DNA of 48,670 nt, from positions 3,681 to 52,350 of the forward strand of contig NZ_RKLU01000009.1 of the NCBI RefSeq assembly GCF_006861665.1, given 5' to 3'. This document shows, piece by piece, positions 16,486 through 37,934 of the stretch. Position 1 is the stretch's first letter. The number at the start of each line of letters is the position of its first letter. Source of the stretch: Halonotius terrestris. Lineage in GTDB: Archaea > Halobacteriota > Halobacteria > Halobacteriales > Haloferacaceae. The position numbers and the translations under genes are program-made. The notes beneath the pieces were generated by a model, which saw only the letters and a program-made list of their open reading frames with translations, ran no database searches and was not told the DNA's origin.

Positions 16486-16863
16486 ATGGGAGATGATTCA
16501 GTGTCGTCCGAGGACACTCCGGAGGTACAAGATGTCCTTGATGCGCTGGATGATCCCGCGTGTCGGGCTATTCTCCAGGAAACTATCGAACCAATGACTG
16601 CGAACGAACTCCTCGACGCATGTGACATCCCCAAGTCGACGCTGTATCGAAAATTAGAACTCCTCAGTTCCGCTTCCCTCGTTCGAGAACAGGAGACGAT
16701 CAACCCCGGAGGTGGACGGGTCACCTACTACGAGCGGTCGTTCGAGGACGTCACAATCTCTATGGACGACACAGGGACGTTTTCGGTGAGTGTCGACCGA
16801 CCGCCGCAATCTACCGACGAACGGCTTGCAGATATCTGGTCGATGATGGGGGACGAAGTATGA
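16486..16863 (+). CDS. ArsR-like winged-helix regulator
   Basis: A 125-residue regulator. Residues 15-75 form a winged helix (DVLDALDDPACRAILQ, then ELLDACDIPKSTLYRKLELL as recognition helix and a wing with GGGRVTYYERSF). The ATG at 16486 gives a typical start; a longer frame to 16201 adds only shadow sequence of the preceding gene. The stop overlaps the start of the next gene (ATGA), so the regulator and the membrane protein at 16860 are coupled. The pair probably senses something at the membrane, but that is inference. Confidence 0.88.
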   Translation: MGDDSVSSEDTPEVQDVLDALDDPACRAILQETIEPMTANELLDACDIPKSTLYRKLELLSSASLVREQETINPGGGRVTYYERSFEDVTISMDDTGTFSVSVDRPPQSTDERLADIWSMMGDEV

Positions 16864-17138
16864 ACGGCGTCATCACGGCGATTGCAGTCGTCAAATTTGT
16901 AATTCTGCTTCTCGGTGGCGGGATCACCTACATTGCATTTAAAGCCTATCGACGGACGGGTGAGGACTCGCTACGCGTCCTTGGTGTCGGGTTCGGTATC
17001 ATCACACTCGGGGCAATCCTGACTGGCGTGGCCAATCAGTTCTTTTCTGTCGGATTGGCCCTCGGCGTTCTCATTAACAGCCTGTTCGTCGCCCTTGGCC
17101 TCGCGGTCATCATGTACTCTCTCCACATACAGCAATGA
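16860..17138 (+). CDS. Membrane protein coupled to the winged-helix regulator
   Basis: A 92-residue protein with three membrane helices and a short basic loop (FKAYRRTGEDSLRVLGVGFG) after the first helix. I associate this layout with a haloarchaeal family found beside winged-helix genes (DUF7521-type, not verified). The ATG overlaps the stop of the regulator gene by four bases. A second regulator/membrane pair with the opposite gene order is at 31122-31975. Function unknown. Confidence 0.82.
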   Translation: MNGVITAIAVVKFVILLLGGGITYIAFKAYRRTGEDSLRVLGVGFGIITLGAILTGVANQFFSVGLALGVLINSLFVALGLAVIMYSLHIQQ

Positions 17139-17202
17139 TCGTGGCTCAATATCTAACTCTGGGGCTAATTCCAAGAACTAACCCCGAACGAGAATTCAGC
17201 TA

Positions 17203-17769
17203 ATGCACCGCATCACGATTCCAGAAAAAACCGATATCTCGCATCGGCAGTGGCAACAGGCGTGGAACCCAATAGACATATTGATTCGATATTTTGTGGC
17301 CAGTTTTGTCCTGGCCAGCGTACTCTTAATCCCGCTTGCATGGGTGGTCGATTCGTATGCTCTTGTTGTTTTTATATTATTCCCGCTTATTGGAGTTTCA
17401 CTCAGTATTATCATTTGGCGACGCTCCTGTTCAGCAGTTAATACTACCTATCAAGAAGTTCTCGATGACATGACCAACTGGCGTAACCTATCTGAAGACG
17501 AGATGCAGGTTTGGACCTCTGAACTGAATGGCTCAGGCGAACAGTATGGCGTCGATCCGGCTCAAAAATATACGCTAACCTACGTTGAGGCGGCTGACGA
17601 GTATACACTGATTAAGGAGATAACTATTGATTTTGCTAATTTGGAGCCTTCCACGAAATCTGAGAGGATTCCATCTCAACAGATTATATCACAGTCATTT
17701 GAGTCGGGAACATTTAGACTTCGTTCGTCGAAAGGGATTTGGAACATTGATGGTCTCAAGAGACAATGA
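17203..17769 (+). CDS. Hypothetical protein with two membrane helices
   Basis: A 188-residue protein with two N-terminal membrane helices (about 29-48 and 52-70) and a soluble C-terminal part (about 75-188) that looks like a mixed alpha/beta domain with no recognised motif. The gene is AT-richer than its neighbours, with many TAT, ATT and AAT codons, which hints at transfer. Its stop overlaps the start of the arylsulfotransferase-like gene (ATGA), so they are made together. Confidence 0.75.
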   Translation: MHRITIPEKTDISHRQWQQAWNPIDILIRYFVASFVLASVLLIPLAWVVDSYALVVFILFPLIGVSLSIIIWRRSCSAVNTTYQEVLDDMTNWRNLSEDEMQVWTSELNGSGEQYGVDPAQKYTLTYVEAADEYTLIKEITIDFANLEPSTKSERIPSQQIISQSFESGTFRLRSSKGIWNIDGLKRQ

Positions 17770-19103
17770 TTGATCGTTCTGGAGTTTCAAGAATTTGGAA
17801 TCGGATCTCATCTATCTCCCTTGGCACCTTCTTGTTCGTCGGGGGAATCATTCTCCTAGTAGGTACCTTCACCGTGAGTGCAGCGCTTGCCCCATCAATA
17901 GACCGAACAACGAAACTCGATTACCAGCCACATACGTTAGTCGGGTCTCAGGGGGGTGGCCCGGGCTGGCACGAATACGGCAGCGTCTACCTTCTCAACG
18001 GTACGAACACTACCTGGCGTGAATCGAGTGCTGATAGCTATTTCGACGTCACACAATCGGAGAACGGAACAGTGTTAGCTGGGTTTATGGATAGCGGATA
18101 TACTTCGTGCGGACCGTACGAATCTCCCTGTACCCGAACGGGATTCCGAGTCATTGACCCCGGACAAGACCCACAGGTGCTTTCGGAGTATAGCTTCCCG
18201 GTCCGAACGAACAAGAACAGCGAAGTCCACGATGTCGAACGACTTCAGACAGGAGAATACCTCGTGACGGATATGGAGTACGAGCGTATATTTACTGTCA
18301 AGAACGGCGAAGTCACGTGGCAGTGGAATGCGAGTTCGTTCTACGACGCCCCACAAGATCCGACGACGACCGACTGGCTGCACATCAACGACGTGGATGT
18401 CATCAGCACCGGGCGCTATCTCGTCTCAGTACGGAATGCCAACCAACTTCTCGTCATCGAACGCGGTGAGGGCGTCGTCGACGTCATCAACGAGGACACG
18501 ACCGATTCAAACGATGCCAACTGTCGGAAGTCAGATCAGCTAGCCGACTATGACAGTGATGGCGATATTCGATGTGGTGACCCCGACGTGCTCAACCACC
18601 AGCACAACCCCCAGTGGCTCGGTGATGGTGCTGTCCTCGTCGCTGACAGCGAGAACGACCGTGTCGTCGAACTCCATCGAACGGAGACCGGTGAGTGGGA
18701 GCCAGCGTGGGCCGTAGATCAGGTAGAGGGGGTCGCATTAGATTGGCCTCGGGATGCAGATCGCCTCCCGAACGGAAACACGCTCATCACCGACACCCTC
18801 AATCGGCGACTCGTAGAGGTCGACGAATCCGGGACTGTCGTCTGGAGCGTTCGAACAGAGCGTATCCCATACGAAGCCGACCGGCTGCCATATGGCGAGC
18901 CTGTCGGAGCCCCGACCTACACGAATAACGGCAGCAGCGTCGACAGCCCTGACGCCGGCGTGCCGGGCCTCTCACTACTACTGGTCGGGCTTCGGGCAGT
19001 CGTTCCCTCAACGCCGTTCTGGTTCCGGGAACCACAACTCGGACTGACGCTTGTCTCCGCACTCCTCATCGCCGTCGGCGGAGGTAACCGAATTCGTAAC
19101 TAA
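17766..19103 (+). CDS. Arylsulfotransferase-like (ASST) beta-propeller membrane protein
   Basis: A 445-residue protein with an N-terminal membrane helix (about 17-40), a large outside domain and a C-terminal hydrophobic segment. Repeated motifs of the ASST/NHL-propeller type occur: NGTVLAGFMD, LQTGEYLVTDMEYER, WLHINDVDVISTGRYLVSVR, HNPQWLGDGAVLVADSENDR, LPNGNTLITDTLNRRLVEVD. ASST enzymes move sulfate between phenols through a His; the His residues in WLHINDV and HQHNP are candidates. Cys pairs may form disulfides. The true reaction is uncertain. It starts inside the stop of the preceding gene and ends in a 4-base convergent overlap with the SpoIIAA-like gene. Confidence 0.75.
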   Translation: MIDRSGVSRIWNRISSISLGTFLFVGGIILLVGTFTVSAALAPSIDRTTKLDYQPHTLVGSQGGGPGWHEYGSVYLLNGTNTTWRESSADSYFDVTQSENGTVLAGFMDSGYTSCGPYESPCTRTGFRVIDPGQDPQVLSEYSFPVRTNKNSEVHDVERLQTGEYLVTDMEYERIFTVKNGEVTWQWNASSFYDAPQDPTTTDWLHINDVDVISTGRYLVSVRNANQLLVIERGEGVVDVINEDTTDSNDANCRKSDQLADYDSDGDIRCGDPDVLNHQHNPQWLGDGAVLVADSENDRVVELHRTETGEWEPAWAVDQVEGVALDWPRDADRLPNGNTLITDTLNRRLVEVDESGTVVWSVRTERIPYEADRLPYGEPVGAPTYTNNGSSVDSPDAGVPGLSLLLVGLRAVVPSTPFWFREPQLGLTLVSALLIAVGGGNRIRN

Positions 19104-27806: not shown

Positions 27807-27893
27807 CTACGCCAGGCGAACGACGAATCCGGTGAGTACCAGTAGTGAGACAACGCCAAGTAACGTCGCCAGTAGGAGGTGCTTCTCTTCCAT
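27807..27893 (-). CDS. 28-residue single-helix membrane peptide
   Basis: A short frame between the two P19-like genes, starting ATG at 27893 with TAG at 27807. The product begins MEEKHLLLATLLGVVS and ends in RLA, forming one clean membrane helix with a charged N terminus. It is 40 bases after the stop of the second P19-like gene and about 100 bases before the start of the first, on the same strand. No clear ribosome-binding site is seen. It resembles small accessory subunits of membrane complexes, but this is inference. Confidence 0.5.
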   Translation of the reverse strand: MEEKHLLLATLLGVVSLLVLTGFVVRLA

Positions 27894-27933
27894 GGATTTG
27901 GCTTCGATTGGATTTCTAAAGACACCTTTGAAA

Positions 27934-28994
27934 CTACAACGTCACCTGCACATCTGGCATATCAACGAAGGCTGTCTCGTATCCCTCATGGCGAGCCGTT
28001 TGTGGGGGCGAATCGACTGTGATCGTCAGCTCATCTCCCGTCTGTATGTCCGCAACCGTTGTCCCGTAGTGATAACGGAGATCTGGATCGATGGTTGCCT
28101 GCAGAATTCCGTCGAATTCTGACGTACCGTCGCGTTGTAGTGTTGCCGATAGTGACATCATCGGCAGCATCGTCCGATTGTAAGGCGTGCGCGGAGACAC
28201 AGCGAGGTACTTCTGCTCCTCGTCACCACCGAAACGCGACGCGTCTTCGAGGACCGTAACCACGAACTTCGCGTCTCCGCTCGTCTCCGACCCACGCACG
28301 TTGCCGGGGAGTGCGTCCGGTGTCGGTACCTGCGAGTCCGGTAACATCTCCATGTCCATCAGGTCGACAGCACCCTTCGTGCCTTCCTTGTCGTCGGGGA
28401 TGTCCGTGTACGAGATCTCATTGAGCGTCGATTCGCTGAACTCGAACTCGAACGTGAACGATGTGTTTCCCTGGTTCTCGGCCAGCGATCCGGTCCGTCG
28501 CGTCGACGGCCCGCCGATGCTGACCTCGACAGTGTATGTGCCGTCGCCCTGAAGTTGTGCGTTATCACCGAAGTGAAAACCCATCGGCTGAGAGAGCATC
28601 GGCCACGGCGCGAACTGATCAATCGACTCCCCGTTCTGTGTAACCGTGAGCTGTGGATTGATATCGGGTGGGATGATCCCCGTCTGTGTCTCCCAAACGA
28701 CCGGCATGAGATGAATCGAATCCTCGGGTTGAATCTCGACCTTCGTGATTCCATTCGGCTTCATCAGCCAGAACCGGTGCGCATACGAATACGTGAGGCA
28801 CACCTGTACCCGCCCTGTTCCTTCATCCCGGGCATTTTCATGCCCTCATAGTGGGTCGGATAGTAGACTGCGTTCGGCCGGTTCTCGGGGAGCGGTGGTG
28901 CCTGCGCTGATCGCGTCTCGAACAGGCCGGTACACCCCGCAAGCCCAACGAGTGACGTGCTACCGACCACTCGAAGCACGTCACGACGATTCAT
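27934..28994 (-). pseudogene. P19/Tpd-like Tat lipoprotein, frameshifted copy
   Basis: Two frames together make a protein like the one at 26634. The first (from ATG 28994) gives the Tat motif (MNRRDVLRVVG), lipobox (LAGC) and the Met-rich entry EGMKMPGMKEQGGY. The second continues CLTYSYAHRFWLM, then PMGFHFGDNAQLQGDGTYTV, MDMEML and the C-terminal domain to 27934. The break is at about 28801-28810, where one base (an A in TAC-AAG-GTG) seems to be missing. Either the gene is broken or the sequence has an error. It overlaps the DyP-like gene by 4 bases (ATGA), so the order is DyP, then this gene. Confidence 0.8.
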
Positions 28995-30286
28995 GCGTCA
29001 CCTCCTGTGCGTTCGACCGGCTGTGCAGGTGGAAGGGCACGCAACGACCGTGGGGGGACGAGGAAATTACCACGCCGCTCCGTCCGGACGTACTGCAGGA
29101 TGCCGTTGTTGTTCCGCTGACCGACAGCCGACTGCTCGGTGACATCAGTTCCGTTCATCGCTTCTCTCGTGTCGACGAAATCGGTGATCCCTCGCTGGAG
29201 CGCGAGGAAATGGAGACTAGCGCTTCCATCATCGGTAGAATCGAAGTCGCGCCGAAGGATGAGGGGCGAGTCATTGTCGTCGCGAGCGCGGGCAGATTTC
29301 TGGGAGTGACCGACGACGCCCATCTCGCGGGCCGTCTCATCCGTTGGCTGACAGTCGTCGATTTTGCTGCTGGTTCCGAGATTGTCTCCAGCGCCCTCGA
29401 TTACGTCGTTCTCGGCGTGGTACGGACAGAACATCTTCGCCTCACGTTGCCAGCGATCGTCCTGGTTGTACCACTGGTTGAGGTTGAGTTGAAGTTTGGA
29501 GATGTGCTGAGTCGTGCCATCGGCGAACGGCCCCGACTGAATCGTCACGCGATCTTCACTGGCCTGGTTCTTTTTGAAACCTGATTTGAATCCCATAAAC
29601 AGGGGTGCGTCCTCGGGAACCTTATCGGCCGGAACACCCTCCGCATCGTCTGCATTCTCCGCCGGGAGTCCATCCCCGATAAATCCCGTTCGCCGGTCGG
29701 TGAGTGAGAAGACGTCGGTCAGTGCAGCGTCAGGCTGATCGACACCGTTGAGAGTCGATTTGTTCCCTTTGAGGGCTTCTTCGGCACCGAGCACCACCTG
29801 TGCCGTGTTACTTGCAAGATGGACGACTGCATCGGGCGTATCGAACTCGGGTTCCTCGAACGGAGCAAGTGCTTCCGGATCGGGGAGGTCAACGTCTTCG
29901 GGAAGCGATTCGTCGAATCGGTCGAAGTATGCCGGAGAATAACTCACCGTGAGCAATAGCCCATCCCCGCTTCGCTCGTAGGCGTGTTCGATGCCACGGA
30001 GGGCTGTCTCAACCTGTCCACGGTCGTCTTCGCTCGGTTGCCCGTCTCGTCGGTAATTCAAATAGAGGAGCACGCGATGGCTCGGAGCAACGACGTTCCC
30101 GTGGTCGTCCCGTGGGAGGGCGTCGTTCCAAGCGTGCTGGCGTTGTGGATGCGCCGACAGATCATCTGGTCCCGTCGGGATATCGACTTCTTCACGGCCC
30201 AGACACGCACTGAACGCCGCTGCACCTCCAATCGCGACGGCCGACTTGAGGAAGTCTCTTCGAGGGATACCTCTCTCATCACTCAT
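28991..30286 (-). CDS. DyP-peroxidase-like Tat lipoprotein
   Basis: A 431-residue exported protein with Tat motif (PRRDFLKSA) and lipobox (FSAC). The layout recalls DyP-type peroxidases such as EfeB: RTGFIGDGLPAEN (near the GxxDG motif), FMGFKSGFKKNQ, a conserved VVGHSQKSARARD with a candidate heme His, and the DyP-like end SPLILRRDFDSTDDG then LHFLALQRGITDFV. EfeB-type proteins take iron from heme or oxidise ferrous iron at the cell surface. The true cofactor is not shown. The next gene starts at its stop (ATGA), so it is tied to the P19-like genes. Confidence 0.72.
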   Translation of the reverse strand: MSDERGIPRRDFLKSAVAIGGAAAFSACLGREEVDIPTGPDDLSAHPQRQHAWNDALPRDDHGNVVAPSHRVLLYLNYRRDGQPSEDDRGQVETALRGIEHAYERSGDGLLLTVSYSPAYFDRFDESLPEDVDLPDPEALAPFEEPEFDTPDAVVHLASNTAQVVLGAEEALKGNKSTLNGVDQPDAALTDVFSLTDRRTGFIGDGLPAENADDAEGVPADKVPEDAPLFMGFKSGFKKNQASEDRVTIQSGPFADGTTQHISKLQLNLNQWYNQDDRWQREAKMFCPYHAENDVIEGAGDNLGTSSKIDDCQPTDETAREMGVVGHSQKSARARDDNDSPLILRRDFDSTDDGSASLHFLALQRGITDFVDTREAMNGTDVTEQSAVGQRNNNGILQYVRTERRGNFLVPPRSLRALPPAQPVERTGGDA

Positions 30287-30363
30287 TACCCGACAGTTAG
30301 GAAGTCAACGGAAAAGCGGTTCTGGTAGAGTTCTTGAATCTCCCCCTCAAGGCCGGTAGCGGA

Positions 30364-30951
30364 CTATCTGGTGATGAGCTTCTTCACCAAGTTCCACCCG
30401 ATAAATCGGGGGGTCCGCTCGCGGTATTCATCGTATTCCTGGCCATACTGCTCTCGCAGCCACGGTTCTTCGGCAAACGGGAACAGTGTGTACACGAGGA
30501 TGGTCAAGACGCCGTGTACAGCCAGTTTCCTGGAGTTCACTGCGATGATCGCGCCGACGATGAACGTAATGAATCCTACGCTCTGTGGGTTGCGTGTGTA
30601 CTGGTAGATACCGTCCGTCCGAAGCTCCCCTTCTCTTCCACTGCTTTCCATCCACCCGAGTTCGAAGAGTGCTGAGAGGGCAAACCCCATACCGAGTGCG
30701 GCGATACCGCTACCTGCGAGTTTGTTCCAGCGTTCGGTGAAGATGAACGAGTCTTGGTCGAGCGCAGCCAGCACCGGAAACCCAGCGAACACGACGGAGA
30801 GCGCTGACCAATTGAACCACCACCGCCACGAGCTGTCGCCGATGGGCCACACTCGACGGTCAGGATGAACCGCACTGATGGCGTACCCGAGAATCAGCGT
30901 GATATCCGCGACGACTGCCGTCAGCAGCGCGCGATCTGAGAACGAGAACAT
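30364..30951 (-). CDS. Isoprenylcysteine methyltransferase-like membrane protein
   Basis: A 195-residue membrane protein with about five helices. The C-terminal half shows the ICMT/PEMT signature: GIYQYTRNPQSVGF, then FPFAEEPWLREQYGQEYDEY and RTPRFI. Family members bind S-adenosylmethionine at the membrane face and methylate lipids, thiols or isoprenyl groups. The substrate is unknown; several bacterial relatives sit near redox genes. It is upstream of the DyP-like gene with 77 bases between and may share its unit. Confidence 0.85.
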   Translation of the reverse strand: MFSFSDRALLTAVVADITLILGYAISAVHPDRRVWPIGDSSWRWWFNWSALSVVFAGFPVLAALDQDSFIFTERWNKLAGSGIAALGMGFALSALFELGWMESSGREGELRTDGIYQYTRNPQSVGFITFIVGAIIAVNSRKLAVHGVLTILVYTLFPFAEEPWLREQYGQEYDEYRERTPRFIGWNLVKKLITR

Positions 30952-31121
30952 ATGTGTATGTAGTGATTGTGCAGGACAAAAAAGTGAGTCAATCGTGGTT
31001 CGTGCCTAGAGACTGCCCCCTCAGAAGAAGTTTGGAACCACCAACCACTCGCTATAATTCTAACATCCGGGGATAATTCGAATCGACGTTCTCAGGTAAC
31101 TGCGTTTCAAATTCAGACCAC

Positions 31122-31460
31122 ATGGCGGGATTTGTCCCACTTCATAGTGGGTTCATCGATCCGTGGTCCCTTCCGTTGCTCGCGGTGATCACCATCGCCG
31201 CTGCTGGTACAGCGGTGCTTCTGGGACTTGCGATCGGCGCGTTCGTTCAGCGCCAATCCCGCCCATATCTGTTAGTCGTCGCTGCGCTAGCTGCCCTTTT
31301 TGGACGCTCTGCAGTTGCGGGGATCACCATCGTAGGCCTGTTTTCACAAGCCGAGCATCACCTTCTCGAACACGGACTTGATATTATTCTTGTCGCGCTC
31401 GTCATTGCTGCGGTCTATCACTCTCGAACTATTTCGAACGAGACCAATTTGGATACATGA
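31122..31460 (+). CDS. Membrane protein coupled to a two-domain winged-helix regulator
   Basis: A 112-residue protein with about three membrane helices (roughly 16-40, 48-72 and 84-101) and short loops containing HH and HG. The stop overlaps the start of the regulator gene (ATGA at 31457), so the pair is coupled. This parallels the pair at 16486-17138 with reversed order. I associate it with a haloarchaeal family of unknown function. Confidence 0.78.
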   Translation: MAGFVPLHSGFIDPWSLPLLAVITIAAAGTAVLLGLAIGAFVQRQSRPYLLVVAALAALFGRSAVAGITIVGLFSQAEHHLLEHGLDIILVALVIAAVYHSRTISNETNLDT

Positions 31461-31975
31461 CACACCAACGTGACCGGATTCACGAGTATATTGCCACCCA
31501 CCCTGGAGAACACTTCAACGCACTCACGCGGAGACTCGACCTCGCACCAGGACAGGTACAGTACCACCTCAAAAAACTCCAGGCTCAGGGAAGTGTAGTC
31601 GAACTACCCCTCTATGGCCGGACTCACTATTACACACCTGGATATGACGCGTGGGAACGGGGAGCGATCGCTGTCCTTCGCCGGGAAACGGCACGCGACA
31701 TTTTATTCTGTGTTCTCGAACAGGGGCCATCCAGACCGGACGCTGTCACAGAGTCTCTCGAGATTGCTCGGGGGACCCTCGAGTGGCACTTGAACCATTT
31801 GACGGAGCAGAATCTGATCGAGAAACATCGAGATACCAATAATCACGTGACGCTGGTCCCCGCCAAGCCGACTGAGACTACTCGTCTCCTCGAAGAGATT
31901 ACACCCTCGCTGTCCGATCGGATGATCGACCGGTTCACCCGCCTCGTCGATAATCTACTGGCGGAGGAATCGTAA
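31457..31975 (+). CDS. Two-domain winged-helix transcriptional regulator
   Basis: A 172-residue soluble regulator with two winged helices: the first at about 5-60 (HFNALTRRLDLAPGQVQYHLKKL as recognition region, wing YGRTHYYTP), the second at about 72-130 (DAVTESLEIARGTLEWHLNH as recognition region). Paired winged helices like this are common in haloarchaea. Its targets are not known; it is coupled to the membrane protein at 31122. Confidence 0.88.
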   Translation: MTHQRDRIHEYIATHPGEHFNALTRRLDLAPGQVQYHLKKLQAQGSVVELPLYGRTHYYTPGYDAWERGAIAVLRRETARDILFCVLEQGPSRPDAVTESLEIARGTLEWHLNHLTEQNLIEKHRDTNNHVTLVPAKPTETTRLLEEITPSLSDRMIDRFTRLVDNLLAEES

Positions 31976-32021
31976 CGAGTTTGCGAATGTGTTTCGTCGG
32001 AACGAGAACTTGATTGTTCGA

Positions 32022-32444
32022 TTACTTTACTCGAACTGTCCCGACCATTCCAGATCCCTCATGTGGGATACAAAAGTACCCGTACGTGCCTGGTTCCTCA
32101 AACGTGTGCTCGTAGTTCTCGCCCGGGGCGATGAGTCCCTCGGTGACCCGGTTCCTCGCAGTACGTTCTGACTCGAAGCCACCACTTGCGAAATACGCGG
32201 CCGCGTCTGGAATCTCGTCTTCATAAGCCGTGACCGTGTGATCGATGTCACTCTCGTTCGTCCACGTAACCGTCTCACCAGGTTCGATCGTAGCGGTCTT
32301 CGGCTCAAATCTGAGGTCGCCGGGCATCGTGACGGTCTGGGCCGCCGAGGACTGTCCGCCCAGACACCCAGCCGTGCTAAGCATCGCCAGGGTGGCAGTG
32401 CTGAGTTGCAACACCGTCCGCCGATCGAAAAATTCGGGTGACAT
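32022..32444 (-). CDS. Halocyanin-like cupredoxin lipoprotein
   Basis: A 140-residue blue-copper protein. The N terminus has a Tat motif (DRRTVLQLS) and lipobox (TAGC), so it is likely lipid-anchored outside. The copper ligands are His (DIDHTVTAY), Cys and His (YFCIPH) and Met (SGMVGT). It is the third gene of the leftward operon MCO-ZIP-cupredoxin, 24 bases after the ZIP gene, and could carry electrons to or from the multicopper oxidase at 33721. Confidence 0.92.
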   Translation of the reverse strand: MSPEFFDRRTVLQLSTATLAMLSTAGCLGGQSSAAQTVTMPGDLRFEPKTATIEPGETVTWTNESDIDHTVTAYEDEIPDAAAYFASGGFESERTARNRVTEGLIAPGENYEHTFEEPGTYGYFCIPHEGSGMVGTVRVK

Positions 32445-32468
32445 TGATACAGAGATGGGTGGTGCCGA

Positions 32469-33719
32469 TTAGAGTACCACGAAGAGGTCAGTCACGTACA
32501 TAATTGCGAGGCCGAGCAGGAATGCGAGTAGGTTCGTCGCACTCGCCACGCGACCGCCGGCATCACGAACCATTCGCGCGATCTCCCAGTCGACCTGTAG
32601 GATCGCACCAACGCCGATCGCGAGGAAGAAGGCACCGATCGTCGGCGAGTACGCGAGACTGCCGATCCAGCCACCGAGGATAACGGGTGCGCCGGCGATG
32701 ACGCCGAGCGCGGCGAAGTGCTTGAGTGCCGGACGTTCCCCGCGAGCGACCGGCGCAACGACAGCCGGGCCTTCCGTCACGTTGTGAAGCATGAATCCGA
32801 TCACGAGGAATGCGCCGAGCGACACGCGCCCGAGTGCGAACGAACTCCCGATTGCCAGCCCCTCCGCGAGGTTGTGCAGGCCGATCCCGACCGCGACCAG
32901 ATACGCGATCCAGAGACCGCTGCTCGCCCGGCTATCACCAGCGGCGACGCGGCCCTCACGCCACGCACTGATCGCTTGGACGAGGAGGAGTGCGCCGAAG
33001 ATTCCGAAGACGACCAAGAGGTTGCCCTCGTATGCGCCTGGAATCCGCTCGGCGAGCTCGAACGCCTCAAACCCGGCGTCGAACGCCAAGAAGCCCAGTA
33101 CGCCAGCTGCAAATAAGAGAACGGCATGCAGCCACCGATCGCTCATCGTCTTGATGTAGGGGAACCAGAGCATCCCTAAGGCGACCGGAATCACGCCGAC
33201 AAACAGTCCGATGACTGCAAGCGTCCCGAGCAGACTGAGGCTAAAGCCGGGCGACTGACTCGGCGCGACGATCGTATTATGGAACGTCGCTCCGTCGGAA
33301 AGCACGAGCGCGACTTCGAGGTCCCATCCCGGATTCCAGTGATACGGAATCACGATCTGTGCGCTTTCCATCGGGGCGAGCGTTTGGTCACCACCGGCTC
33401 CTTCGACCCGGAAATCCCAGTAGGCCTCGTCGACGAGAACCTGCGATATCGTCACGGATTCGGGCCCGTTGTTCGTCACGTGCAGGACGACCGTTTCGTC
33501 GCTCGGAAGCGTCGTGTGCGTGATCGTCACGTCGGGAAGCGGTGTGCCGCTCTGAACACCGGCGAGCGGGGACGTGAATGCGAACACACCCAAGACGAGT
33601 ACGAGCAACACGACCGGGAGTAACGCGCTGACCCATCGCGGAAGCCCGAGCGGTTGTGTGATCTCTTCGTCAGCCGTTACACCACCGTCCGTCGTCGTGT
33701 CTTGTGTCTTATCCGTCAC
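32469..33719 (-). CDS. ZIP-family metal transporter with extracellular N-terminal domain
   Basis: A 416-residue protein. A membrane helix (29-49) is followed by a beta-rich outside domain (about 60-155, Ig-like in pattern: ETVVLHVTNNGPESVTISQV), then about eight ZIP helices. The metal-site motifs are GLHNLAEGLA (H282, N283, E286) and MLHNVTEGPA (H312, N313, E316). ZIP proteins import Zn, Fe or Mn. The N-terminal domain is not usual for ZIP proteins. The start is GTG, 1 base after the oxidase stop, so translation is coupled. Confidence 0.85.
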   Translation of the reverse strand: MTDKTQDTTTDGGVTADEEITQPLGLPRWVSALLPVVLLVLVLGVFAFTSPLAGVQSGTPLPDVTITHTTLPSDETVVLHVTNNGPESVTISQVLVDEAYWDFRVEGAGGDQTLAPMESAQIVIPYHWNPGWDLEVALVLSDGATFHNTIVAPSQSPGFSLSLLGTLAVIGLFVGVIPVALGMLWFPYIKTMSDRWLHAVLLFAAGVLGFLAFDAGFEAFELAERIPGAYEGNLLVVFGIFGALLLVQAISAWREGRVAAGDSRASSGLWIAYLVAVGIGLHNLAEGLAIGSSFALGRVSLGAFLVIGFMLHNVTEGPAVVAPVARGERPALKHFAALGVIAGAPVILGGWIGSLAYSPTIGAFFLAIGVGAILQVDWEIARMVRDAGGRVASATNLLAFLLGLAIMYVTDLFVVL

Positions 33720-33720
33720 G

Positions 33721-34980
33721 TTAGACCACCTCGAAGAAGCTCATCCAGCCGAGTTCTGCGAACTCAGACTGGTGGGCGTGGAACATGTACAGGCCCGGCT
33801 CATGATCGGAGTAGTCTATCTCGATGATGCCGCGCTGCGCCTGGCATTGCATGATCGTGTCCACTGTCTTATTCGTCGGCGTCAGCGTCGTCCCGTGGTC
33901 GTAGTAGTCGAAGAACTGCGAGTGCGTGTGGAACGAGTTTATGAGGTCGAACTCCGTTGCATTGGAGAGGTAGACGCGCTGGCGTTCGTTCTTGTCGATC
34001 TGGATGGGGCGTTTCGTCTCGCCCGCCGTCCAGTTGCCCTCGCCGTCGGTGTCACCGACTCCGTAACCGAACGCCCGTGTGTTCGCCGCGTAAACCTCGT
34101 TGCCGCCATCGAAGTTGGTGTCGAACGAGTTCATCACCATCACCATCTCGTTGACGGCGTCGTTTTCGGCGTACTCGTGATTCCGGCTCTTTGCCTCTTC
34201 GACGAGTTGCTCCCGGAAGTCGTCGGTAATCGGGCCCGGGTAGTTGACGTACTCGCGTGGATTCTCCCTGACGCGTTCGGGGTCCGGATCGACGATGATC
34301 GTGCCGTAGAGTCCGCGGTGGATGTGCTCTTTCAACGGGAGCGAGTGGCAGTGATAGAAGTGCGTGCCAGCGGGTTGGGCGAGCCATTCGTACGTGAATG
34401 ACTCACCCGTATCGAGTACGCCAGGCCCGTTTTGTGGGATCCCATCCATTCGCGGGTTGAGGTTCTTCAGGTGTGGATGGATCGTATGCGCGTGCCGTCC
34501 CAGATTCGTGAACTTCACGCGAATCAGGTCGCCCTCGACGGCGCGGATCGTCGGTCCGGGCACCTGGCCGTTGTATGCCCACGCCGAGAACTCGACGCCC
34601 GGCGCGATTGCTATCGTCGTGTCGACGGCGGTGAACTCGAATTCCCGTACGGTTCGGCCGTCCTCCTCGTAGACTTGTTGAGGAACGTTATCCTGCCCAC
34701 TTTCTCCGGTATTGAACGCGGTGAGGAACTCGTGCGGGTCGAAATCTAAATCTCGGTATTCACCCACCGCACCGAAGTTACCGTGTTCATCCTCATCGTC
34801 GTGATCGGATGAGGCACTTGCCCGAGAACTACCGAGTCCGACGGCTGCACTCCCAGCGACACCGAGTCCGCCGAGGACCGTGCGGCGACTGACACTCGTT
34901 TCACCAGTGAGTGATTCGACCAGTCGCTCCTCGAGCCGTTCTGTGACGTTTGCTGCGCTACTGTAATCTATCGATGGCAT
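33721..34980 (-). CDS. Two-domain multicopper oxidase (NirK-like type)
   Basis: A 419-residue exported oxidase with Tat motif (SRRTVLGGLG) and no lipobox. Domain 1 carries HTIHPH (H165, H168, H170) and HCHSLPLKEHIHRGLYG (H210, C211, H212, H219), the only type 1 Cys. Domain 2 carries HTH (351-353) and HAH (401-403) without Cys, so it supplies trinuclear-site ligands. This layout is like the oxidases of ammonia-oxidising archaea. The expected axial Met of the type 1 site is replaced by Leu. It heads an operon with a ZIP transporter and a cupredoxin. It may oxidise Mn or Fe; that is inference from its neighbours. ATG 34980 has a CTCCTCC-type site (GGAGGAG) just upstream. Confidence 0.9.
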   Translation of the reverse strand: MPSIDYSSAANVTERLEERLVESLTGETSVSRRTVLGGLGVAGSAAVGLGSSRASASSDHDDEDEHGNFGAVGEYRDLDFDPHEFLTAFNTGESGQDNVPQQVYEEDGRTVREFEFTAVDTTIAIAPGVEFSAWAYNGQVPGPTIRAVEGDLIRVKFTNLGRHAHTIHPHLKNLNPRMDGIPQNGPGVLDTGESFTYEWLAQPAGTHFYHCHSLPLKEHIHRGLYGTIIVDPDPERVRENPREYVNYPGPITDDFREQLVEEAKSRNHEYAENDAVNEMVMVMNSFDTNFDGGNEVYAANTRAFGYGVGDTDGEGNWTAGETKRPIQIDKNERQRVYLSNATEFDLINSFHTHSQFFDYYDHGTTLTPTNKTVDTIMQCQAQRGIIEIDYSDHEPGLYMFHAHQSEFAELGWMSFFEVV

Positions 34981-35035
34981 GATCTCCTCCGCTGGTCAAG
35001 CCTTCGCATACCCATACACGTCTATTGCCCCACCC

Positions 35036-35045
35036 AATATATAAA
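35036..35045 (-). promoter_or_regulatory. TATA box of the oxidase-ZIP-cupredoxin operon
   Basis: On the minus strand the element tttatatatt lies about 60 bases before the ATG at 34980, giving a leader of about 30 bases that holds the ribosome-binding site GGAGGAG (34984-34990). The two TTAGA-type palindromes (35046-35076) sit directly upstream of it. Confidence 0.6.
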
Positions 35046-35059
35046 TTAGACTCATCTAA
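35046..35059. promoter_or_regulatory. Metalloregulator-type operator box 1
   Basis: ttagactcatctaa is a palindrome of the form TTAGA-N4-TCTAA. It lies just upstream of the TATA box of the oxidase-ZIP-cupredoxin operon, next to a second box. A related TTAG-N6-CTAA box lies in the promoter of the DtxR/MntR-type gene. The form fits binding sites of this regulator family. Confidence 0.6.
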
Positions 35060-35061
35060 AC

Positions 35062-35076
35062 TTAGATTGAGTCTAA
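35062..35076. promoter_or_regulatory. Metalloregulator-type operator box 2
   Basis: ttagattgagtctaa is a palindrome TTAGA-N5-TCTAA, 2 bases from box 1. The outer arms of both boxes also pair with each other (ttagactca at 35046-35054 with tgagtctaa at 35068-35076), so the pair forms a larger dyad and could seat two dimers. Confidence 0.6.
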
Positions 35077-35108
35077 ACTAATAGCCTCCAGTAGGGAGAC
35101 TCATTAGT

Positions 35109-35786
35109 TTAGTTTGAAGCCCCAGCGAGCGTTTGAGCGGATATAGATCGGGCAACTTCCTCTGGGAGTGCAACTCGTTCGTCGGTGCCATCGGGAACAA
35201 GCGTCACCATCCCAAATGAGGTAGTCTCAACAATTTCGACTACAGTTGTTGGGGTAATCCCGTGTTCAGACAGGTACCGGAGTAGATCTGGGTCATTGTC
35301 TGGCACCCGCTCGATTCGAACCTTATCGCCGACCTGCTGATCAGCGAGGGTTTCACCGGATTGTGGCGGTGAAACGTCCAGATCCGCTGTGGGAATCGGG
35401 TCGCCATGCGGGTCAACTGCCGGATCCCCGAGCTGCTCTGCAATTCGGTCAGCGAATTGATTGCTGATATGGTGTTCGAGGCGATCTGCTTCGTCGTGTA
35501 CCTCAGCCCAATCGTACTCGAGGCGCTCCGTCAGGTATCGTTCTAAGAGCCGATGATGGCGAATGATTTCGAGCGCGACAGGAATTCCAGTCTCCGTGAG
35601 TACAACGCCCTTGTAGGGCTCGTAATGGACAAAATCGCGCTCGGCCAATTTTTTTACCATACTGGTGACTGACGGTTGTTCAACGTCCATGTACTCAGCG
35701 AGCGTCGAGGTCCGCACCCGTTCATCCGTTTCGTCCTGAAGGTAATAGATCGCTTTGAGATAATCCTCCATGATGGCGCTCAGCAT
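35109..35786 (-). CDS. DtxR/MntR-family metal-dependent regulator
   Basis: A 225-residue regulator with an N-terminal winged helix (about 1-65), a dimerisation and metal domain (about 66-140) and a C-terminal FeoA/SH3-like domain (about 145-222). Metal-site candidates are D8, H78, D101, E104 and H105. D8 matches MntR (Met in DtxR), and Asp sits where DtxR has Cys102, so Mn sensing is likely but not proven; Lys11 replaces the MntR Glu11. The ATG at 35786 gives the usual N terminus (MLSAIMEDYLKAIYYL). The promoter holds a TATTA-like box with a TTAG-N6-CTAA palindrome between it and the start, so it probably represses itself. It lies upstream of the oxidase-ZIP operon. Confidence 0.93.
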   Translation of the reverse strand: MLSAIMEDYLKAIYYLQDETDERVRTSTLAEYMDVEQPSVTSMVKKLAERDFVHYEPYKGVVLTETGIPVALEIIRHHRLLERYLTERLEYDWAEVHDEADRLEHHISNQFADRIAEQLGDPAVDPHGDPIPTADLDVSPPQSGETLADQQVGDKVRIERVPDNDPDLLRYLSEHGITPTTVVEIVETTSFGMVTLVPDGTDERVALPEEVARSISAQTLAGASN

Positions 35787-35796
35787 TAGAATGGAA

Positions 35797-35810
35797 TTAG
35801 ACGGGGCTAA
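35797..35810. promoter_or_regulatory. Operator box in the metalloregulator's own promoter
   Basis: ttagacggggctaa (TTAG-N6-CTAA) lies 11-24 bases upstream of the ATG at 35786 and between the TATA element (35812-35820) and the expected transcription start. The spacing equals box 1 of the oxidase operon (both 14 bases, both beginning TTAGAC). In this place a bound protein would block initiation. Confidence 0.6.
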
Positions 35811-35811
35811 G

Positions 35812-35820
35812 TTTATAATT
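35812..35820 (-). promoter_or_regulatory. TATA box of the metalloregulator gene
   Basis: On the minus strand aattataaa is centred about 30 bases before the ATG at 35786, the leaderless or nearly leaderless spacing. Confidence 0.55.
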
Positions 35821-35972
35821 TGCCACGGGATGATTTGTCTTGTCGACAGCTGTGGGCGTAAATCTGAGATGGGTCCGGTTATCGCCACAGTCAACACTTG
35901 CACATTGATTTTCCGTATCTTCCTGTTGTGTTACTCACTGAGACTCAGAATGGCGGGTCGAGAATTCGAACC

Positions 35973-35983
35973 TTTATAATATA
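35973..35983 (+). promoter_or_regulatory. TATA box of the 55-residue histone-fold-like gene
   Basis: tttataatata is centred about 28-29 bases before the ATG at 36006. The region between 35821 and 35972 holds no gene that I can support. Confidence 0.5.
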
Positions 35984-36005
35984 GACGGGAGAAGTCGGCG
36001 ATGGA

Positions 36006-36173
36006 ATGTCTGACCTCATCGTCAAAGCAGCCGTGAAGGACGCACTCTCGGACCAGAACGTCTCGGCAGATTTCTACGACGCCCTCGACGAAGAGGTCGC
36101 CGACCTGCTCGACGACGCCGCAAAGCGTGCTGAGGCCAACGACCGGAAGACGGTCCAGCCCCGCGACCTCTAA
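36006..36173 (+). CDS. 55-residue histone-fold-like protein (DUF1931 type)
   Basis: A small soluble protein (MSDLIVKAAVKDALSDQNVS ... VQPRDL) of about three helices. It matches my memory of the haloarchaeal DUF1931-type family: helix LIVKAAVKDAL, then ADFYDALDEEVADLLDDAAK and the end NDRKTVQPRDL, which resembles histone-fold proteins of the CBF/NF-Y type. Family function is unclear; DNA binding is possible. The start is at 36006. It is followed 71 bases later by TBP. Confidence 0.75.
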   Translation: MSDLIVKAAVKDALSDQNVSADFYDALDEEVADLLDDAAKRAEANDRKTVQPRDL

Positions 36174-36201
36174 TTCGGAAGGTACCACACCGACGCTCGA
36201 A

Positions 36202-36244: not shown

Positions 36245-36805
36245 ATGAGTGTCACAGCCGAATCAATTCAAGTCGAGAATGTGGTCGCGTCGTCCGATAT
36301 CGGTCAAGAACTCGATCTGGAAACGCTTTCTGAGGATTTAGGAGCCACCGACTACGATCCCGATAACTTCCCTGGACTCGTATATCGGATGCACGATCCT
36401 AAAGCCGCAGCGCTCATTTTCCGCTCGGGGAAAGTCGTCTGTACGGGTGCAAAAAGCGTCGACGATGTGACGACTGCGTTGGAATACGTCTTCGACGAGC
36501 TCCGTGAATTGGGTGTCGATGTCGCTACCTCTCCAGATATCGAAATCCAGAATATTGTCTCAAGTGGGGACCTCGACCACACACTCAATTTGAATGCGAT
36601 TGCGATCGGCCTTGGTCTCGAACATATCGAATACGAACCAGAGCAGTTCCCGGGGCTCGTCTACCGGCTTGACGACCCGGACGTCGTCGCACTCCTCTTC
36701 GGGAGTGGAAAGCTCGTCATCACGGGCGGAAAACAGCTTGACGATGCTGAACAAGCGCTTACAGTGATTGAAAACCGGCTCACTGACCTCGGGTTACTGG
36801 AGTAA
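36245..36805 (+). CDS. tbp: TATA-binding protein (TBP)
   Basis: A 186-residue archaeal TBP with two TBP repeats (about 8-92 and 98-184). Repeat 1 has NFPGLVYRMHDPKAAALIF then SGKVVCTGAKS; repeat 2 has QFPGLVYRLDDPDVVALLF then SGKLVITGGK. These are the DNA-binding saddle and the Phe residues that kink DNA, all kept. It binds the TATA box and recruits TFB. Haloarchaea often carry several TBPs, some on plasmids. This copy is divergent from no gene and heads a rightward stretch with exonuclease VII genes 86 bases on. Confidence 0.97.
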   Translation: MSVTAESIQVENVVASSDIGQELDLETLSEDLGATDYDPDNFPGLVYRMHDPKAAALIFRSGKVVCTGAKSVDDVTTALEYVFDELRELGVDVATSPDIEIQNIVSSGDLDHTLNLNAIAIGLGLEHIEYEPEQFPGLVYRLDDPDVVALLFGSGKLVITGGKQLDDAEQALTVIENRLTDLGLLE

Positions 36806-36890: not shown

Positions 36891-37934
36891 ATGGCTGATG
36901 CCGAACGGGAGGTAGATGATGTCCTGTCCGGGAATGTTCTTTCAGTCCAAGAGCTGAACGACCGAATTGCATCGGTCGTCCAGGACACGCCTGCCCTCAA
37001 CGGCGTCCGCTGTATTGGCGAGGTCACGGATCTCCACCAGAACAGTACCGCCCTCTATTTCACCCTGACCGACGGCGATGCCGAGCTTCCCTGTATGCTC
37101 TGGGCGAACCGCTATCAGAAGATGGACGCTGACCTCGAGGACGGGGCGGAGGTCATCCTCGAAGGCGATATCGACTACTGGACAGAGGGCGGGAAAATCG
37201 ACCTCAAACCGTGGGAGGTGATCGTCGTCGGCGACGGCGACCAGGCAGCTGCCGTCGAGCGGCTGCGAAGCGAACTCGAAGAGCGTGGCTGGTTTGACGA
37301 CGAGCAGAAACAGCGCCCGCCGGCGTTCCCAGAGCGAGTCGGTGTCGTGACCTCCCTCCGGGGCGACGCTCGCTACGACATCCAGAGCGCGATCCACGAG
37401 CAGGACCCCACCGTCGACATCCTGGTGAAGGATGCGACCGTCCAAGGGTCAGAGGCCCCGACGTCTATCGCGAACGGGATTCACCATCTGGACCGCTCCG
37501 AGGAGGTCGACTCGATCATCGTCGGCCGTGGCGGCGGGAGTGATTCGAACCTCCAGGCGTTCAACACCGAGCGGGTCGCGGAAGCTATCTTCACCGCGAA
37601 CACCCCGACCGTCACGGCGATCGGGCATACTGACGACCGGTTAATCGCAGATCAGGTCGCGGATGTGGCAACGATCACGCCGACGGCCGCTGGCGAGTAT
37701 ATCGTGAATTCCCGCGAGGAGTTCTTCGCGGGCGAGGTCAAGCCGCTGGCACAGCAACTCGACGCTGCGTACGAAACCTTCCAGCAGGAGCACGAACATG
37801 AACGAGAGCTTGCTGAAGCAGTCGACGAGGCGGCCGTACCCGAGGGCCTCCCGCCGGTCTACTACAAGGCCGCAATCGCTGTGCTGTTGTTGCTGTTGTT
37901 GGCCATCACTGGGCTTTGGTTAGGGGTGATCTAA
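36891..37934 (+). CDS. xseA: Exonuclease VII large subunit (XseA) with C-terminal membrane anchor
   Basis: A 347-residue XseA. The N-terminal OB fold (about 16-115: LNDRIASVVQ ... CIGEVTDLHQNSTALYFTLT) binds single-stranded DNA. The catalytic region has GVVTSLRGDARYDI, VGRGGGSDSNLQAFNTERVA and GHTDDRLIADQVAD (GHExD in bacteria). It is shorter than the bacterial protein (about 450) because the long coiled coil is cut. It ends with a clear membrane helix (about 324-345: YKAAIAVLLLLLLAITGLW), not usual for this enzyme. XseA-XseB degrade single-stranded DNA from both ends. XseB follows 2 bases after its stop. Confidence 0.93.
   Translation: MADAEREVDDVLSGNVLSVQELNDRIASVVQDTPALNGVRCIGEVTDLHQNSTALYFTLTDGDAELPCMLWANRYQKMDADLEDGAEVILEGDIDYWTEGGKIDLKPWEVIVVGDGDQAAAVERLRSELEERGWFDDEQKQRPPAFPERVGVVTSLRGDARYDIQSAIHEQDPTVDILVKDATVQGSEAPTSIANGIHHLDRSEEVDSIIVGRGGGSDSNLQAFNTERVAEAIFTANTPTVTAIGHTDDRLIADQVADVATITPTAAGEYIVNSREEFFAGEVKPLAQQLDAAYETFQQEHEHERELAEAVDEAAVPEGLPPVYYKAAIAVLLLLLLAITGLWLGVI

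Follow-up and report, generated by a model that had tools for sequence, protein, structure and literature searches.

The analysed stretch, hereafter the window, comprises 48,670 nucleotides of a Halonotius terrestris contig. It contains, on the minus strand, a DtxR/MntR-type regulator gene and an operon coding for a multicopper oxidase (MCO), a ZIP-family transporter and a cupredoxin. Genes and promoter elements are listed in Table 1, where operators are to be read as putative.

Table 1. Genes and promoter elements of the MCO-ZIP-cupredoxin operon and of its neighbouring regulator gene, in window coordinates
Feature	Position	Strand	Sequence, domains or motifs	Remarks
Plastocyanin-type cupredoxin	32022..32444	minus	Pfam PF00127	140 aa
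ZIP-family transporter	32469..33719	minus	HNLAEG and HNVTEG motifs	N-terminal Ig/cupredoxin-like domain
Two-domain MCO	33721..34980	minus	Pfam PF07732, PF07731	419 aa; first gene of the operon
TATA-like element, MCO operon	35036-35045	minus	TTTATATATT	
Proximal putative operator, MCO operon	35046-35059	.	TTAGACTCATCTAA	abuts the TATA-like element
Distal putative operator, MCO operon	35062-35076	.	TTAGATTGAGTCTAA	15-bp variant
DtxR/MntR-type regulator gene	35109..35786	minus	HTH, metal-binding/dimerisation and FeoA/SH3-like domains	225 aa
Putative operator, regulator promoter	35797-35810	.	TTAGACGGGGCTAA; on the gene strand TTAGCCCCGTCTAA	between TATA-like element and start
TATA-like element, regulator gene	35811-35820	minus	AATTATAAAC	about 30 nt before the ATG

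The three TTAG…CTAA palindromes pointed out in the initial annotation are confirmed at the positions given there: two are found directly upstream of the TATA-like element of the MCO operon, while the third lies between the TATA-like element and the ATG of the regulator gene, that is, as had been proposed, where a bound repressor would block. The MCO promoter reads, on the minus strand, TTAGACTCAATCTAA-GT-TTAGATGAGTCTAA-TTTATATATT; the centres of its two boxes are about 16.5 bp apart, and a pair with the same spacing occurs in seven of the related loci described below. In the regulator promoter the order is AATTATAAAC-TTAGCCCCGTCTAA-TTCCATTCTA-ATG, with the box directly after the TATA-like element; as this element is so close to the start codon, the transcript is probably leaderless. 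The regulator-gene box is symmetric in part only; in homologues, this position is likewise occupied by a box. Matches to TTAG-N6/7-CTAA number 4 in the window, where 0.15 are expected, and none of 100 shuffled windows contained as many. The fourth match, at 37920, sits in the coding end of xseA and was set aside.

The closest solved structure for the MCO is 7rab, also a multicopper oxidase (E=4e-108), for which no paper was found in the literature search. The transporter features two HN-x-x-EG metal motifs, the HN..EG cores of which are invariant. It matches BbZIP both by family profile (E=3e-12) and by its predicted model (pLDDT 79.6; BbZIP structures 7z6m/5tsa, E about 5e-7): on these grounds it is correctly named a ZIP protein; its score for the Pfam ZIP model is below the Pfam cut-off.

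The regulator belongs to the DtxR family, scoring above cut-off for both PF01325 (71 bits) and PF02742 (99 bits), and also features PF04023. Its nearest solved structures are 5zr4, 8pvt, SloR and ScaR; it does not reach the curated NCBIfam MntR models, the best being NF047407 (MntR, 214 bits, cut-off 350). By alignment, MntR positions 8, 11, 77, 99, 102 and 103 are occupied by D, K, H, D, E and H; nearly all of its relatives show D, K, H, D/E, E and H. The Asp residues originally taken as favouring Mn are indeed present, at positions 8 and 99, where DtxR itself has Met and Cys, respectively. The argument holds only in part: Glu11, which in B. subtilis MntR is part of the binuclear Mn site, is replaced by Lys in the window protein, as in all aligned homologues and in DR2539, a sensor of Mn or Fe. 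Lys11 excludes an exact B. subtilis MntR metal site, as judged from the aligned residues.

Pattern searches, together with inspection of selected stretches, were extended to the whole genome (2.84 Mb in 26 contigs, window included). TTAGA-N4/5-TCTAA is present in five places, belonging to only four promoters: the MCO operon of the window, with its two boxes, a copy of this locus (92.6% identical) on contig C1, an operon for a ZnuA-type metal ABC importer (C22) and a GDT1 gene (C19). GDT1 is a Mn-exporter family, the proteins characterised so far being involved in Mn transport (PMC7380456). An operator common to a ZnuA-type ABC operon and a GDT1 gene is as expected of a Mn regulon of the SirR/MntR type; for the importer itself, the models do not separate Mn from Zn. 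Two FeoA-domain DtxR proteins are found besides the window regulator, on C7 and C19; the C7 gene overlaps another GDT1 gene and features a one-mismatch box, TTTGACGGGTCTAA, before its start. The genome-wide scan suggested by the initial annotation supports the regulon proposed there, but extends it well beyond the window. The same palindromes were also looked for at unrelated promoters of the genome, and are not common there.

Looser patterns are less telling: a relaxed TTTAGR-N4-YCTAAA with 2 mismatches is uninformative (68 matches vs 148 for the control). A second class of palindromes, TTAGG-N4-CCTAA, is located, among other places, at iron-siderophore-type transport genes, such as a Peripla_BP_2 gene beside FecCD; clusters of it are seen on contig C20, at 405849-416015 and 473806-476090. 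It may be the Idr operator of H. terrestris, assuming that the Idr-like short regulator on C11, which lacks Mn-type ligands, binds it. The window boxes, being of the TTAGA type and at other targets, do not fit an Idr iron regulon.

The duplicated segment corresponds to window positions 27837-36174, and close relatives of the locus are found on plasmids of Halorarius, Halorubrum, Halobaculum and others. The contig is of a mobile type: beside the regulator it carries a 55-aa DUF1931 (histone-fold-like) gene (36006-36173) and an extra TATA-binding protein gene (36245-36805). DUF7405 and DUF7350 genes follow the MCO operon (28991-30286 in the window, 16843-17904 in the copy), and DUF7405 is found after it also in four relatives.

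An MCO-protein search retrieved 77 loci. The haloarchaeal loci on which conservation was evaluated total 705 kb, of which 21.4 kb were defined beforehand as promoter zones: 62 strict boxes fall within these zones, and 2 in the other 684 kb, one of them preceding another DtxR-like gene. When up to one mismatch is allowed, a box is found in front of 29 of 31 promoter-headed MCO genes and 22 of 26 MCO-linked DtxR genes, so that operator-like sites of a DtxR-family regulon including both the MCO operon and the regulator's own gene, as originally proposed, are conserved in sequence. The same holds for importer genes (close orthologues, 16/16), GDT1-linked DtxR genes (14/15) and GDT1 genes without a linked DtxR (10/15). 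At most 1.7% of mononucleotide-shuffled upstream sequences feature such a box; the counts are not independent, as many loci are related. Where a DtxR gene heads the MCO operon, a single box is located between TATA and start (eight loci); six loci without a linked DtxR gene keep their boxes.

A blind pattern search in 59 genomes returned again the DtxR, importer, GDT1 and MCO promoters, and added putative exporters of the ArsP_2 family (PF11449); some of its matches are unrelated or coding. TTAGA-N4-TCTAA is only mildly in excess in these genomes (86 matches vs 51 for the reversed control; 79 vs 31 leaving out four small f2/g3 genomes): the strength of the evidence resides in the placement of the boxes, not in their number. 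The ArsP_2 proteins are ten-TM transporters, named arsenic efflux by NCBIfam, whose promoter boxes are of the TTAGA type, often TTAGACATCTCTAA (five loci); they are candidates for Mn export. In DtxR-GDT1 operons (four loci) the position of the box varies: in some genomes it comes after the TATA, in another before it. Four distant ZnuA paralogues, taken as a contrast, lack the TTAGA box; they have in common an upstream TTATTAA/AATAAC-like sequence, perhaps the site of a zinc regulator.

The MCO-ZIP pair, often beside a DtxR gene, is also found in bacteria, namely in Chloroflexi, Bacteroidetes, Gemmatimonadetes, Actinobacteria, one Armatimonadetes and one Fraserbacteria genome. In 31 of 34 bacterial loci exactly one TTAG-N6-CTAA is present within the promoter zones, which total 14.6 kb, and the other 346 kb contain no match; with the reversed control, 0 matches fall in the zones and 4 elsewhere. 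Boxes and genes together probably represent a metal-sensing switch widely shared among haloarchaea and several bacterial phyla.

The boxes, their placement and conservation, the set of targets and the linkage of the genes can all be read from the DNA. On this basis we infer, with a probability of roughly three in four, that the boxes are operators of DtxR-family metalloregulators of the MntR/SirR type, which would bind them and repress the MCO-ZIP-cupredoxin operon, presumed to import metal, together with the regulator gene and the ABC importer, when Mn(II), perhaps Fe(II), is sufficient. Under such conditions, metal-loaded dimers of the regulator would bind TTAGA-N4/5-TCTAA. At the regulator gene, a dimer between TATA and start codon would block initiation, resulting in autorepression; at the MCO operon, two dimers bound beside TATA and BRE would keep TBP and TFB off. 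When metal is low, uptake operon, regulator and chromosomal metal ABC importer would be switched on together. By analogy with SirR in Halobacterium, metal-dependent repression combined with autorepression is the most economical reading.

A transcriptome of Haloferax mediterranei, which has an operon similar in gene content, fits co-regulation: the MCO-transmembrane-plastocyanin operon is up (log2FC 7.1-7.7) together with ZnuABC (up 4.3-4.6) and a FeoA-domain DtxR gene, while iron-uptake genes are down (PMC11218638). Simple repression by Mn does not explain why the likely exporters GDT1 and ArsP_2 carry the same box. Since B. subtilis MntR acts, via arrays of sites, as a repressor of importers and an activator of exporters (PMC11275975), one regulator might, by analogy, do both here, depending on position.

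Iron might take the place of manganese: the regulator would sense either Fe(II) or both metals equally, and iron uptake, by an oxidase-plus-permease pair, would be the main task of the operon. An MCO beside a permease does recall ferroxidase systems; in yeast, Fet3-Ftr1 is a ferroxidase-type pair of this kind. Lys at MntR position 11 is also what the dual Mn/Fe sensor DR2539 has (PMC3327659). However, the iron-type uptake promoters of this genome carry the TTAGG class, and a separate Idr-like protein, without Mn-type ligands, is available, while TTAGA boxes track GDT1 and ZnuA/MntC-type importers; the similar Haloferax operon, moreover, moves opposite to the iron genes (PMC11218638). The iron reading is hence rather unlikely, with odds of the order of two to one against it, and Mn is the better guess for the regulator metal, because of the targets, not because of the residues alone.

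The boxes might also be true DtxR operators bound mainly by chromosomal SirR/MntR proteins, with the linked regulator acting elsewhere. The two other DtxR proteins with a FeoA domain, encoded on C7 and C19, would be suitable for this role, and boxes persist at loci without a linked DtxR gene: chromosomal DtxR proteins, therefore, probably use the boxes too. That they do so in place of the linked regulator is improbable, as the box also stands in the promoter of this regulator itself, and the three, regulator, box and operon, co-occur on various plasmids and in various phyla.

At the MCO operon, the initial annotation had left room for activation: boxes located upstream of the start and adjoining the TATA, rather than over the start, could mediate metal-dependent activation of a module induced by excess metal, which would then oxidise or export it. 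Tandem boxes recall the activation of mneP by MntR (PMC11275975), and the likely exporters are preceded by the same box. When a DtxR gene heads the MCO operon, on the other hand, its single box is in a blocking position; the module has its box in common with the importer and the regulator's own gene, and in Haloferax these three kinds of genes rise together (PMC11218638). Induction by excess metal is thus quite improbable. That the boxes are chance palindromes or unrelated promoter sequence is hardly credible: generic TTAG-N6-CTAA shows no genome-wide enrichment (19 matches vs 23 for the reversed control), but the strict form is strongly enriched, as is its placement at promoters, and both are conserved; these footprints already contradict chance.

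In haloarchaea, the footprint predicts a regulon to which the importer, the exporter, the regulator and the MCO-ZIP operon would all belong. An oxidase-transporter operon about which little is understood is provided with a strongly conserved putative operator, which ties it to manganese-type regulation; in recent transcriptomics, the similar Haloferax operon was read as copper related (PMC11218638). For several bacterial phyla, the footprint points to Mn or Fe acquisition as a possible role of the same operon. More tentatively, and with chances of about one in three, the MCO-ZIP pair, often with DtxR and cupredoxin, may constitute a so far undescribed system in which Mn(II)/Fe(II) acquisition is coupled to an oxidase. 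It would have passed between archaea and about six bacterial phyla along with an operator of its own, TTAG-N6-CTAA, with regulator, box and target moving as one unit. No description of the MCO-ZIP(-DtxR) operon as a regulon target was found in the library of papers searched.

Among known systems, SirR of Halobacterium is described as a Mn(II)-dependent autorepressor, the deletion of which raises the Mn ABC genes; it shares with the present case the haloarchaeal DtxR family, a Mn ABC importer as target (zurM-zurA-ycdH) and autoregulation (PMC3600143). The window regulator differs in its location, a plasmid-like contig, and in its linkage to an MCO-ZIP-cupredoxin operon. Deinococcus radiodurans DR2539 is close in sequence (8pvt, an annotation-level match); its position 11 is likewise Lys, and it too has an SH3-like domain. 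It binds DNA with Mn(II) or Fe(II) (PMC3327659), and its known target, unlike here, is mntH. B. subtilis MntR has the HTH and metal domains in common with the window regulator, in which D8, H77, E102 and H103 are conserved; the differences are Glu11 and Glu99 in MntR, which lacks a FeoA/SH3 domain, as against Lys11, Asp99 and a FeoA domain in the window regulator. Haloarchaeal Idr-type iron regulators belong to the same superfamily, and TTAG...CTAA-type palindromes are present in the same genome; in contrast, the Idr-type protein is short, lacks both FeoA domain and Mn-type ligands, and its supposed sites at iron-type genes are of the TTAGG-N4-CCTAA class.

DtxR-family proteins generally prefer TTAG-type half sites, so that the box itself is not new. 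Archaeal DtxR/MntR/SirR regulons are also already known; Leyn and Rodionov (2015) reportedly predicted MntR, FetR and ZntR regulons in archaea, with DtxR-family palindromes at metal-transport genes. To the extent that their work is presented in a review, which cites it for regulated UPF0016/GDT1 genes in halobacteria (PMC7380456), the arrangement resembles the one described here. What is added, relative to the papers searched, is a set of putative operators for the MCO-ZIP-cupredoxin operon, the occurrence of this operon on plasmids and a footprint that archaea have in common with bacteria, the notable point being that the box is tied to the MCO-ZIP operon across two domains.
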